Origin: Motilibacter deserti
GTDB lineage: Bacteria; Actinomycetota; Actinomycetes; Motilibacterales; Motilibacteraceae
Direction of reading: 5' to 3'
NCBI RefSeq assembly: GCF_011250635.1
Contig: NZ_JAANNP010000012.1
Location: 1-64,000 of the forward strand
DNA length: 64,000 bases
The translations under genes were made by a program, and so were the position numbers. This document shows, in pieces, positions 14,632 through 20,230 of the stretch; position 1 is the stretch's first letter, and each line of letters opens with the position of its first letter. The notes beneath the pieces are model-generated. The model did not search any database. It was given only the letters and a program-made list of their open reading frames with translations, and was not told the DNA's origin.

Positions 14632-14847
14632 ATGGCAGGCAAGGACCGGGCCGCGGGAGCGGCCCTCGGCGAGGTGCGTTTCCTCACCGTCGCCGAGGTC
14701 GCGTCGATCATGCGCGTCTCGAAGATGACGGTCTACCGGCTGGTCCACAACGGCGACCTGCCCGCGGTCCGCGTGGGGCGGTCCTTCCGCGTGCCGGAGC
14801 AGGCCGTGCACGACTACCTGCGCGACTCCTTCGTCGAGACCGCCTGA
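14632..14847 (+). CDS. Small helix-turn-helix (excisionase-family) DNA-binding protein
   Basis: 71 aa, nearly all one MerR/excisionase-type winged helix-turn-helix: LTVAEVASIMRVSKMTVYRL then VHNGDLPAVRVGRSFRVPEQ. This family (Xis/BldC fold) includes small regulators such as BldC. This version is a conserved companion of proC and bS22 in many actinobacteria rather than a phage excisionase. ATG 14632 follows CAGGGA at 14616-14621. Its last 34 bases overlap the end of the convergent EAL gene. Target genes are unknown. Confidence 0.85.
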   Translation: MAGKDRAAGAALGEVRFLTVAEVASIMRVSKMTVYRLVHNGDLPAVRVGRSFRVPEQAVHDYLRDSFVETA

Positions 14848-16016
14848 GCCAGCGGCCCCGGCCGCCCCAGCAGGAACCCCTGCACCAGGTCGACCCCCAG
14901 CTCCTCGAGAGCGTGCAGGTCCTCGACCGTCTCCACGCCCTCGGCCAGCAGCTCGGCGCCCAGCGAGGCGGCGAACCCCACGAGCGAGCGGGCGAGCGCC
15001 TGCCGGACCGGGTCGGCGGCGATGCCGCGGGTGATGTCGATGTCGAGCTTGATCGAGTCCGGGCGCAGCTGGAGGATGTGCCGGAGGCTGGAGAAGCCGG
15101 CGCCGGCGTCGTCCACCGCGACGTACGCCCCTCCGGCCCGCAGCTCGTCCAGGGACCGGAGCAGGGCCGGGTAGTCCACCACCGGCGCGTGCTCGGTGAC
15201 CTCGACGACCAGCCGGTGCCCGGGCTCGGCCAGCAGCCGGGCGAGGACCCGTGGGTCGAGGAGCGCCTCCGGTGACGCGTTGACGCCCAGGCGCATGCCC
15301 TCGGGCAGCTCGGGCAGGTGCTCGAGCGCGCGGTCCAGGGCGACCAGCTCGAGGTCGGGGCCGAGCCCGAGCTGGCCGGCGTCGGAGAAGACCTGCGCCG
15401 GGTTCGGCCCCAGGGCCAGGTCGAAGCGGGACAGCGCCTCGGCGCCGACCACCTGCATGTCCGCCAGGCGCACGACGGGTTGGAAGACCGGCTCGACGGC
15501 GCGGGCGGCGAGCGCGCGCAGCATGCGGGTGCGGGACCGGTCGCGGGCCTGCTCCTCCGCGGCTGCCGCGGCGTCCAGCGCCCCGTCCTCGCTCTCATCG
15601 AGGAGCCCGGCCAGCAGTTGCAGGAACCGCGCGTCCCGGTCGTCGAGCCGGGGCTGGGCGCTCCGGCTGACGCAGCACAGCATGCCCTTGGCCGAGCCGT
15701 CCGGGCGCGTGACCGGGACCCCGACGTACGCGCCGATGCTCAGCTGGTCGGTGATCGGCAGGTCGCGCGTGCGGGGGTCGTGGCGGGCCTGCGGGATCAC
15801 CGAGGGGAGGTCGCCGGCCAGCACGCGGGCGCAGTACGAGTCCGAGTAGCTGGTGCCGCAGTTGATCTCCAGCCCGATGCCCGCGATGTCGCCGTCGGCC
15901 GCCAGGATCACCTGCTCACCTCGGGTGAACTGCGAGAGCCAGGCGACATCCATGCCGAGATGGGTGCGCGCGAGGTGCAGCACCCGCTGGGTGCGTTCCG
16001 CGACGACGGTGGACAC
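14814..16016 (-). CDS. GAF-EAL cyclic-di-GMP phosphodiesterase
   Basis: 400 aa. Residues about 1-140 form a GAF-like sensor (SYCARVLAGDLPSVIPQARH; SIGAYVGVPVTRPDGS), then a short helical linker, then an EAL domain at about 165-390. Catalytic signatures are intact: GAEALSRF, LGVNASPE, EVTEHAP, VDDAGAGFSSL, IKLDIDITRG, LAEGVETVEDL and VQGFLLGRPGP. No GGDEF domain is fused, so this should be a dedicated c-di-GMP hydrolase controlled by a small ligand or redox signal. It starts at GTG 16016 after GGGGAGAGAGG. The 3' end runs 34 bases into the convergent HTH gene. Confidence 0.92.
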   Translation of the reverse strand: MSTVVAERTQRVLHLARTHLGMDVAWLSQFTRGEQVILAADGDIAGIGLEINCGTSYSDSYCARVLAGDLPSVIPQARHDPRTRDLPITDQLSIGAYVGVPVTRPDGSAKGMLCCVSRSAQPRLDDRDARFLQLLAGLLDESEDGALDAAAAAEEQARDRSRTRMLRALAARAVEPVFQPVVRLADMQVVGAEALSRFDLALGPNPAQVFSDAGQLGLGPDLELVALDRALEHLPELPEGMRLGVNASPEALLDPRVLARLLAEPGHRLVVEVTEHAPVVDYPALLRSLDELRAGGAYVAVDDAGAGFSSLRHILQLRPDSIKLDIDITRGIAADPVRQALARSLVGFAASLGAELLAEGVETVEDLHALEELGVDLVQGFLLGRPGPLAQAVSTKESRR

Positions 16017-17647: not shown

Positions 17648-17747
17648 GCCTCGTCGCGGCCGAGTCGCCGGCATCGGACCGGAACCGCCTGCCGCCCCGC
17701 TGACAGGCGAACTCCTCTTCCTACTCGTTTGTCTGAGCAACCGTCCG

Positions 17748-17824
17748 TTGCCACACCCTTACATGTCGTTGATACGCCCGTAACACCTCGCCGAAAGAGT
17801 CACGGCGCGCCTCCTGTGGCGCGC
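17748..17824 (+). promoter_or_regulatory. Putative promoter and leader hairpin of the amine oxidase operon
   Basis: The 205-base gap before the amine oxidase is less GC-rich than its surroundings. TTGCCA (17748-17753) and TGATAC (17770-17775), 16 bases apart, could be -35 and -10 elements. A hairpin GCGCGCC/GGCGCGC (17805-17824, six-base loop) lies 28 bases before the start codon. The hairpin is clear in the sequence; the promoter is a guess. Confidence 0.35.
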
Positions 17825-17852: not shown

Positions 17853-19451
17853 ATGGCGGTCACGCGACGGCAGTTCCTCCAGCAGGTAGGCATCACCGGT
17901 GGCGCTGGAGTGATGTTCTCCACGATGGGGGCCATGGGCATGATGCCCGCGGCGGAGGCCAAGACGCTTCCGTTCCGTGCCCCGAAGAAGTCCGACTTCA
18001 CGCTCACCGGCAAGGCGCACAAGAACATCCTCATCCTGGGCGGCGGCATCGCCGGCCTGACGTCCGCGTACCACCTGCAGAAGGCCGGCTACGACGTCAC
18101 GATCCTCGAGGCCAACAACCGCCCGGGCGGGCGCAACTGGACGGTCCGCAAGGGCGACACCATCACGGACCTGCGTGGTGAGACGCAGGAAGCCACGTTC
18201 ACCCGTGACCAGTACATGAACGCCGGTCCCGCCCGGCTGCCGCAGAACATGGTCACGCTCGACTACTGCCGTGAGCTCGGCGTCCCGATCGAGCCGTTCA
18301 TCAACCAGAACGCGGACGCCTACCAGTACCGCGAGGGCACGACGCCCATCTCCAACCGCCCCATCCGGCACCGCGAGGCGAAGGCCGACGTTTACGGCTA
18401 CGTCTCCGAGCTGCTCGCGAAGGCCACGGACCAGGGCTCTCTCGACACCTACCTCACCCAGACGGACAAGGACGCGCTCATCGCGTTCCTGCGCAACTTC
18501 GGCGCGCTCGGCAACCGCGTGGCCGGCGACCCGGCGGGGAGCTTCAAGTACACGGGGACCGACCGGCGTGGCTTCATCACGACGCCCGGCGCGGGCTTCG
18601 AGGACGGCGAGCCCGTCCCGCCGTTCGCCATGCAGGACGTGCTGGCCGCCGGCCTCGGCAACTACTTCTCGTTCGAGTTCGGCTGGGACCAGGCGATGAT
18701 GATGTTCCAGCCCGTCGGGGGCATGGACCGCATCGCCTACGCCTTCGAGGAGGCCGTCGGCAAGGAGAACATCCGCTACGAGGCCGAGGTCACGAACATC
18801 GAGAACACCTCGACGGGCGTGAAGGTGCAGTACATGTCGCGCGGCCGCCACATGCGCGAGATCTCCGCCGACTACGCGATCTGCACGATGCCTCCCCAGA
18901 TCGTCGCCAAGACCCCGTCGAACCTCCCCGCGGACATCATCGCCGCGAACGCGTACGCCACGAAGTCGCGCAGCGGCAAGCTCGGCATCGAGTACAACCG
19001 CCGCTGGTGGGAGGAGGACGAGCGCATCTACGGCGGCATCACCAACACCAACATGGACATCTCCAACATGTGGTACCCCTCGTCGGGCTTCCACGGCGAG
19101 CGCGGTGTCGTCATCGGCTACTACTCCTCGTCCGCGAACTACGGCAACCTCAACCACGCCGGCCGCGTCGAGCGGGCGCTCATGCAGGGCGCCAAGATCC
19201 ACGGCGAGAAGTACAAGCAGGACATCAAGTCGACGTTCTCGATCTCCTGGGACCTGGTGAAGTACCAGGAGGCGGCGTGGAACTCCTGGCCGTCGCGCAC
19301 GAACGGCCACTACGGCCGGCTGCTCGAGCCCGCGGGCAACATCTACTTCGCCGGCGACCACCTGAGCCACACGATCGCCTGGCAGCACGGCGCCATCGAG
19401 TCGGCCCGCCTCGCCATCACCAAGCTGCACGAGCGCGTCCTCAGCCGCTGA
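17853..19451 (+). CDS. Tat-exported flavin monoamine/L-amino-acid oxidase
   Basis: 532 aa FAD enzyme. A twin-arginine signal (TRRQFLQQVG, then a hydrophobic stretch ending near AEA) occupies residues 1-35, implying folded export with FAD bound. The dinucleotide motif is ILGGGIAGLTSAYHL followed by EANNRPGGRNWT. The C-terminal FAD motif is NIYFAGDHLSHTIAWQHGAI. The family oxidises amines or L-amino acids to imines with release of hydrogen peroxide; the aromatic tail WQHGAIESARLA is like tryptophan monooxygenase and L-amino-acid oxidases. Lysine AAG and TTC codons are frequent, suggesting strong expression. It is followed 29 bases later by an exported RidA. Confidence 0.9.
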   Translation: MAVTRRQFLQQVGITGGAGVMFSTMGAMGMMPAAEAKTLPFRAPKKSDFTLTGKAHKNILILGGGIAGLTSAYHLQKAGYDVTILEANNRPGGRNWTVRKGDTITDLRGETQEATFTRDQYMNAGPARLPQNMVTLDYCRELGVPIEPFINQNADAYQYREGTTPISNRPIRHREAKADVYGYVSELLAKATDQGSLDTYLTQTDKDALIAFLRNFGALGNRVAGDPAGSFKYTGTDRRGFITTPGAGFEDGEPVPPFAMQDVLAAGLGNYFSFEFGWDQAMMMFQPVGGMDRIAYAFEEAVGKENIRYEAEVTNIENTSTGVKVQYMSRGRHMREISADYAICTMPPQIVAKTPSNLPADIIAANAYATKSRSGKLGIEYNRRWWEEDERIYGGITNTNMDISNMWYPSSGFHGERGVVIGYYSSSANYGNLNHAGRVERALMQGAKIHGEKYKQDIKSTFSISWDLVKYQEAAWNSWPSRTNGHYGRLLEPAGNIYFAGDHLSHTIAWQHGAIESARLAITKLHERVLSR

Positions 19452-19480
19452 CCTCTGCCAACTCCATGAAGGGTGCTTCC

Positions 19481-20170
19481 ATGAATTTCGCATCTGCGAA
19501 GGTGCGCGCGGCTCTACCTTCGCGTCGTGCGCGCGTCGCCGTGCTCGCGGCCGCGGGCATGCTGGTCGCGGGCGGCGGCTTCACCGCCGGCGCGGTGGCC
19601 GACGGGCCGTCGATCCCGAAGTCGCGCACCGCAGTCACGATCCTGCCGGCCGGCCAGGCCAACCCCTCGATCGCGAACGGTGTCGCCTTCGCCAAGAACG
19701 TCGCGCTCTACAACTCGAGCGGCATCGGCCCGTCGGGGCTCAACACGGCCGCGCCCGCGGGCACGCCGGAGCGCTACATCGACACGGCGATCTTCCCGGG
19801 CGGCGTGCTGCCGCAGGGCGTCACCGTCACCGAGGCCCAGGCCATCAACAACCTGCGCCGTATCGGCGAGAACCTGTCAGCCATGGGGCTGACGTTCAAG
19901 GACGTCGTCACGATGCGCGTCTTCCTCGACGCGCCTCCCGGGGCGGCCCGCGCGGACTACGCCGGCTGGAACCGCGCGTACCGGCAGTACTTCGCCAACA
20001 CCAACGTGCTCACCGGCGCGACGATCAACGTCCCGCTGGGTACCGCCCCCGCGGCGCCGCCGTTCTTCGTCAACCCGACCCGCGTCTCGCGGTCCACGCT
20101 CGAGGTGGCCAGCCTGGCCGTCGAGGGCTGGCTGATCGAGATCGAGGTGGACGCGGTCTACCCGCGCTGA
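19481..20170 (+). CDS. Exported RidA-family (imine/enamine deaminase) protein
   Basis: 229 aa: an N-terminal signal segment (ARVAVLAAAGMLVAGGGFTA) followed by a RidA/YjgF fold. Visible features are the middle block NLRRIGENLSAMGLTFKDVV and the C-terminal SRSTLEVASL and WLIEIEVDAV. The arginine of SRS aligns with the catalytic arginine of deaminating RidA proteins (ARSxVEVA). Ordinary RidA is about 130 aa and cytoplasmic, so the signal and an extra N-terminal part are unusual. ATG 19481 is favoured over ATG 19466 because GAAGGG lies seven bases before it. Probably co-transcribed with the oxidase, whose imine product it could hydrolyse. Confidence 0.85.
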   Translation: MNFASAKVRAALPSRRARVAVLAAAGMLVAGGGFTAGAVADGPSIPKSRTAVTILPAGQANPSIANGVAFAKNVALYNSSGIGPSGLNTAAPAGTPERYIDTAIFPGGVLPQGVTVTEAQAINNLRRIGENLSAMGLTFKDVVTMRVFLDAPPGAARADYAGWNRAYRQYFANTNVLTGATINVPLGTAPAAPPFFVNPTRVSRSTLEVASLAVEGWLIEIEVDAVYPR

Positions 20171-20196: not shown

Positions 20197-20230
20197 GGCC
20201 CCGTCCCCGCCGACCGGCGGGGACGGGGCC
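20197..20230 (+). terminator. Strong hairpin terminator after ridA-like gene
   Basis: A perfect 15-base stem (GGCCCCGTCCCCGCC with its complement) closes on a four-base loop, 27 bases after the stop codon, with no T-run, as is common in GC-rich actinobacteria. It separates the oxidase operon from the rex operon. Confidence 0.85.

Follow-up and report, generated by a model that had tools for sequence, protein, structure and literature searches.

A Tat-type L-amino acid oxidase and a Rid3-like protein with its own signal peptide: a probable extracytoplasmic amino-acid deamination module in Motilibacter deserti

The window analysed here, a stretch of 64,000 nucleotides from Motilibacter deserti (contig NZ_JAANNP010000012.1), carries an oxidase gene and a Rid gene on the same strand, separated by 29 bp (Table 1). 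The original prediction, made from the letters of the sequence, had described an amine or amino-acid oxidase with a Tat signal, followed 29 bases later by a RidA with a signal of its own and a retained catalytic arginine. Both open reading frames were confirmed at the positions of Table 1, and the features announced for each product were found, as detailed below. Near the pair, on the opposite strand, lies a gene for a GAF-EAL protein, a probable cyclic-di-GMP phosphodiesterase (14814-16016, minus strand).

Table 1. Features of the oxidase-Rid locus, in window coordinates
Feature	Position	Strand	Basis
Candidate weak GlnR-like box (GTAAG-n6-GCAAC, 7 of 9)	17747..17762	-	Not significant alone; shuffles often reach 7
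roLAAO-type L-amino acid oxidase (FAD), 532 aa, predicted Tat-exported	17853..19451	+	PF01593, 2jae homology, invariant residues
Tat signal peptide of the oxidase (TRRQFLQ ... PAAEA)	17853..17960	+	Twin-arginine motif, 108/108 homologues
Predicted Rid3-like imine deaminase, 229 aa, predicted exported	19481..20170	+	PF01042, profile, predicted structure
Rid signal peptide (basic n-region, hydrophobic core, AVA/DG)	19481..19600	+	Hydropathy peak; homologue signals
Codon of catalytic Arg204 (RidA Arg105 equivalent)	20090..20092	+	102/102 conserved; aligns with PAR of RidA/Rid3
15-bp GC-rich hairpin 3' of the pair, probable terminator without U-tract	20197..20230	+	-41.9 kcal/mol

The product of the upstream gene matches the flavin amine oxidase family PF01593 (4.5e-41). 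Its best solved relative is 2jae (E 1e-162, residues 54-530 covered), with 54% identity over 467 aligned residues. Four residues, R128, Y424, W476 and W510, are invariant in 106/106 homologues; allowing for a one-residue offset in the mapping, we take them to be the substrate-binding residues R84, Y371, W426 and W467 of roLAAO. Judged by sequence, the window oxidase is an orthologue of the L-amino acid oxidase of Rhodococcus opacus, all four active-site residues checked being kept. Its N-terminus (MAVTRRQFLQ / MAVTRRQFLQQVGITGG...PAAEA/KT) is a canonical Tat signal, and the twin-arginine motif is found in the N-termini of all 108 homologues. The genome encodes both TatC and TatA, with no TatA beside the pair; the motif and this translocase make the oxidase a predicted Tat substrate.

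The downstream gene product matches PF01042 (2.5e-9, 37.6 bits for a cut-off of 27.3). The catalytic-type arginine R204, equivalent to RidA Arg105 and common to RidA and Rid1-3, is invariant in 102/102 homologues, as are E220, E222 and other core residues. With a profile built from 44 orthologues, the Rid3 structures PSPTO3006 and PFL1385 rank as the top two (E about 1e-13), all others having E values of at least 5e-6. The AlphaFold model (mean pLDDT 82) is closest to 9bka (Z 16.1, rmsd 1.9 over 131 residues), then to 9bkc (Z 13.7), the remainder giving Z values of 11.5 or less. By profile and by predicted fold, Rid3 thus appears the closest of the subfamilies, rather than the archetypal RidA. 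The protein is also longer than RidA, with extra segments. A search for viral relatives of this Rid returned none.

Its N-terminus has the form of a 40-residue signal peptide ending at AVA/DG, with a hydropathy peak of 1.97; at plausible starts, the genome's three other Rid proteins do not exceed 1.2 and show no signal of this kind.

The original prediction closed the pair with a strong terminator. A GC-rich hairpin does stand there, in surroundings (101 nt) with a z of -3.75, and a similar one follows the pair in the sister species, but it lacks a U-tract and a terminator scan scores none. A search for a consensus sigma-70 promoter was negative. The pair is preceded by a glutaredoxin gene and followed by rex. 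It had been said to split a conserved neighbourhood, and glutaredoxin and rex are indeed direct neighbours in five related genomes: two family relatives without the pair, and three genomes (G002, G311 and G319) that have it elsewhere. Only in the window's genome and in the sister species does the pair lie between them. The "different codon texture" also announced for the pair holds for overall GC, which drops from about 75% around it to 67% in the oxidase gene, but not for codon usage, since the GC3 of the two genes (0.96 and 0.94) is like that of their neighbours (0.92-0.98). The lower GC thus reflects amino-acid composition (low GC1), and foreign DNA, as judged by codon usage, was ruled out.

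To what extent the two genes travel together was examined in two samples. Among 394 genomes of the class, searched for a strong Rid orthologue and for the oxidase, the oxidase adjoins Rid in all 23 Rid-carrying genomes. The converse does not hold: 16 of the 38 genomes with an oxidase above a stricter cut-off are without Rid, so that Rid is not obligatory for roLAAO homologues, and a profile search for Rid beside oxidases lacking an obvious one found none at eight loci. The second sample, with one genome per species and many actinobacterial genera, consists of the best-scoring 80 of 327 Rid loci and is therefore biased toward close relatives. Within these best 80, the oxidase is present in 78/78 usable loci, the other two lying at contig ends with the upstream DNA missing. 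It stands just upstream on the same strand in 69, is divergent in 8 and reversed in 1. The eight divergent loci are those of Cellulosimicrobium (L117, L118, L119, L124, L127, L131, L136 and L138), with about 380 bp between the genes in L117.

In R. opacus ATCC 51881 (L088) the oxidase adjoining Rid matches 2jae with 100% identity across 478 aa, and the row reads oxidase, lipoprotein-type Rid, TatA. No gene beyond the pair is generally conserved: DnaG, IMPDH, thiolase, permeases and others vary by locus, the exceptions being TatA and a permease at Rhodococcus/Nocardia loci, where at several loci of this type an amino-acid permease is divergent. As the flanking genes mostly differ between loci, the oxidase-Rid pair is the unit, and it is kept across soil actinobacteria. 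The distance matrices of the two proteins correlate (r 0.78), which fits co-inheritance; this value lacks a species control and we do not count it as evidence. A search of other genomes for the pair with signal peptides, suggested along with the original prediction, thus finds the genes linked in both samples with signals on both products, and contradicts the possibility, raised there, that they rarely occur together.

A signal-like N-terminus is found in essentially all Rid orthologues and is of two kinds. Secreted-type signals occur in Kribbella, Arthrobacter, Nocardioides, Micromonospora, Cellulosimicrobium and the window; lipoprotein-type signals, in which SS usually comes after the lipobox, occur in Rhodococcus, Prescottella, Nocardia and Pseudonocardia, at about 27 loci. 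In this typing a few of the chosen start codons are doubtful, as are two Kribbella "lipoboxes" (L068 and L072). That the type of signal switches while export stays argues that export itself is selected. A TatA gene directly follows Rid in 19 Rhodococcus/Nocardia loci. That of R. opacus (L088:4549-4713) matches PF02416 with 58.6 bits, and its start overlaps the Rid stop (TAGTG). On a plasmid of Metabacillus (pBY2G20, L158:1566-4829), in the Bacillota, the oxidase gene is followed in one row by genes for a signal-bearing Rid, for TatA and for TatC. Export, called here from sequence motifs, is supported for both predicted partners by the Tat motif, the switching Rid signals and the TatA/TatC neighbours.

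GlnR, the actinobacterial nitrogen regulator, binds gTnAc-n6-GaAAc, the Tiffert consensus as given in passages of PMC3087709 and PMC3662644. Among 73 non-redundant regions upstream of the oxidase, 30 score 8-9 of 9 for this box at spacing 6. The other spacings between 0 and 15 give 2 to 10 such regions each, and 40 permuted motifs no more than 8. The sequence GTNAC-n6-GAAAC lies upstream of 30/75 Rid-linked oxidases versus 6/125 control promoters taken from other genes at those loci (Fisher 6e-10), a P value that is optimistic even after redundancy removal because the loci are related, a weakness from which the spacing control is free. Loci L033 and L139 provide examples of such boxes. Upstream of oxidases without Rid no box was found (0/8). 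The best match in the window's own oxidase promoter reaches 7 of 9, which is not above chance; perfect boxes are found in the same genome at amt and at one glnA.

Related arrangements exist outside the Actinomycetota. An oxidase, a cytochrome c and a signal-bearing Rid, which in Comamonas is lipoprotein-like, are encoded on plasmids from Ketogulonicigenium, Sulfitobacter, Microvirga and Comamonas; this is the arrangement described for Gluconacetobacter in passages of PMC5053998. In Proteus mirabilis (L162:1823-3782), a gene for a signal-bearing Rid lies 40 bp downstream of the gene for the well-known Tat-type membrane L-amino acid deaminase (5fjm, E 1.6e-288). On Komagataeibacter plasmids L154 and L165, Rid (with a cytochrome c in L154) lies beside IS genes in stretches without an oxidase, probably a disrupted cluster.

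We propose that the pair is, with good probability, an extracytoplasmic module for oxidative deamination of amino acids, serving nitrogen scavenging. The Tat system would export the oxidase already folded with its FAD; beyond the membrane, the enzyme would use O2 to convert free L-amino acids into 2-imino acids, with formation of H2O2. The Rid3-like protein, exported separately and presumably co-transcribed, would hydrolyse the imino acid to a 2-oxo acid and ammonia; this step would clear a reactive product and free ammonia for uptake more quickly. In water, imino acids also break down by spontaneous hydrolysis. For this reason, and because the site is away from PLP enzymes, the benefit of an extracellular Rid is not obvious; it may possibly lie in a faster local release of ammonia, in protection of the oxidase or the envelope, or in the control of particular imines. 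The module also raises a puzzle: the accepted role of Rid proteins is to shield PLP enzymes within the cell, and yet the imine would be hydrolysed outside.

The steps differ in what they draw on. Oxidation follows from homology to a characterised enzyme, and imine hydrolysis from homology to characterised Rid3 proteins together with the conserved catalytic arginine. RidA and Rid3 genes are known to cluster with amine oxidases, and Rid to act on the imines that oxidases make (PMC4433059, PMC5619798). Nitrogen scavenging is proposed from what surrounds the orthologues, GlnR boxes and permease genes, and from the likeness to Chlamydomonas (PMC10805672). We infer co-transcription, actual export, activity, substrate range and, for this organism, the nitrogen-scavenging purpose. 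A dedicated extracytoplasmic deamination with an imine-hydrolysing Rid, as originally predicted, appears well supported by the adjacency of the genes, the signals on both predicted products, the TatA/TatC neighbours and the invariant catalytic residues.

Other readings of the pair have to be weighed. Rid could serve chiefly to stabilise or anchor the oxidase, as its subunit, instead of hydrolysing imines. Such a role is proposed for the "non-catalytic" beta (RidA) subunit in the periplasmic oxidase-RidA complex of Chlamydomonas (cited in a passage of PMC5053998); the extra segments that make this Rid longer than RidA also fit, as do the lipoprotein-type homologues, which could anchor the oxidase. 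A pure scaffold would not need R204, E220, E222 and the core residues that are invariant in 102 homologues, and we hold this role to be unlikely. That Rid stays in the cytoplasm, its N-terminus being a chance hydrophobic tail, would agree with the normal location of RidA proteins and with the three signal-less Rid proteins of the genome. It is hard to reconcile with signal-like N-termini kept in nearly all orthologues whatever their sequence, with lipoboxes in Rhodococcus, Nocardia and Pseudonocardia, and with signals on the proteobacterial and Bacillota partners as well, so that we consider it extremely improbable.

The purpose of the module could also be another one. Marine bacterial amino acid oxidases are antimicrobial proteins, according to passages of PMC4699246, and the pair might chiefly be a weapon, its H2O2 directed against competitors while Rid shields the producer's envelope from imines. 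The association with GlnR boxes and amino-acid permeases speaks against this, as do the lipoprotein Rid partners, which imply cell-bound action; we judge it quite improbable. There is likewise little chance that the module is dedicated to making a special product (indole-3-acetic acid) from one amino acid, tryptophan for example, with Rid directing the imine toward the keto acid. A link of this kind is reported for Gluconacetobacter lao-cccA-ridA in passages of PMC5053998, and Chlamydomonas LAO1 points the same way (PMC10805672), but the substrate range of roLAAO is broad (passages of PMC4699246) and the neighbours of the pair vary, with no shared biosynthetic genes.

Beyond the window, the preferred reading, an exported module for nitrogen scavenging, may extend to a general class. 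We give about even chances to the view that exported Rid3-like deaminases cross phyla beside varied exported amino-acid oxidases, in some cases with TatA or TatA-TatC genes of their own and, in actinobacteria, under the control of GlnR, their partners being of the roLAAO type in Actinomycetota and Bacillota, an oxidase with cytochrome c in Proteobacteria, and the membrane L-amino acid deaminase in Proteus. If true, this class would be an extracytoplasmic branch of reactive-imine clearance, a process mostly described as cytoplasmic. The export of RidA had been called unusual in the original prediction; RidA is normally cytoplasmic, but exported Rid recurs in several phyla beside exported amino-acid oxidases. 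For the oxidase, the link to an exported Rid, Tat genes and GlnR boxes offers a testable role, the scavenging of nitrogen from amino acids outside the cell. What appears to be new is that roLAAO has an exported Rid3 partner, and that this partner has Tat and GlnR associations: neither is described among open-licence papers, which is weak evidence of novelty; the extracytoplasmic principle is already known from Chlamydomonas and Gluconacetobacter.

Likenesses and differences appear between the window pair and the known systems. roLAAO (2jae) is an orthologue by sequence and active-site residues, and its gene in R. opacus is adjoined by the same Rid, while the window enzyme is 54% identical to it. 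The characterised Rid3 proteins (PSPTO_3006, PFL_1385; 9bka, 9bkc) are nearest to the window Rid by profile and fold and share its catalytic arginine; both deaminate imines from an L-amino acid oxidase, and also iminoarginine from DauA (PMC5619798). The window Rid shares only 30-33% identity with them in the structural alignment, and differs by an added signal peptide, longer segments and a fixed oxidase partner. In Gluconacetobacter diazotrophicus, the lao-cccA-ridA cluster, which is linked to indole acetic acid, has a gene for cytochrome c between the other two, whereas the actinobacterial form is oxidase-Rid, in some cases with TatA; the passages of PMC5053998 on this cluster describe no export of its RidA. 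The periplasmic LAO1 of Chlamydomonas, with LAO2/RidA, is eukaryotic and is likened here by arrangement, not by sequence comparison (the complex is cited in a passage of PMC5053998). The window pair has the gene linkage and the predicted export signals by which an extracytoplasmic oxidase-Rid pair of the Chlamydomonas/Gluconacetobacter type is recognised.
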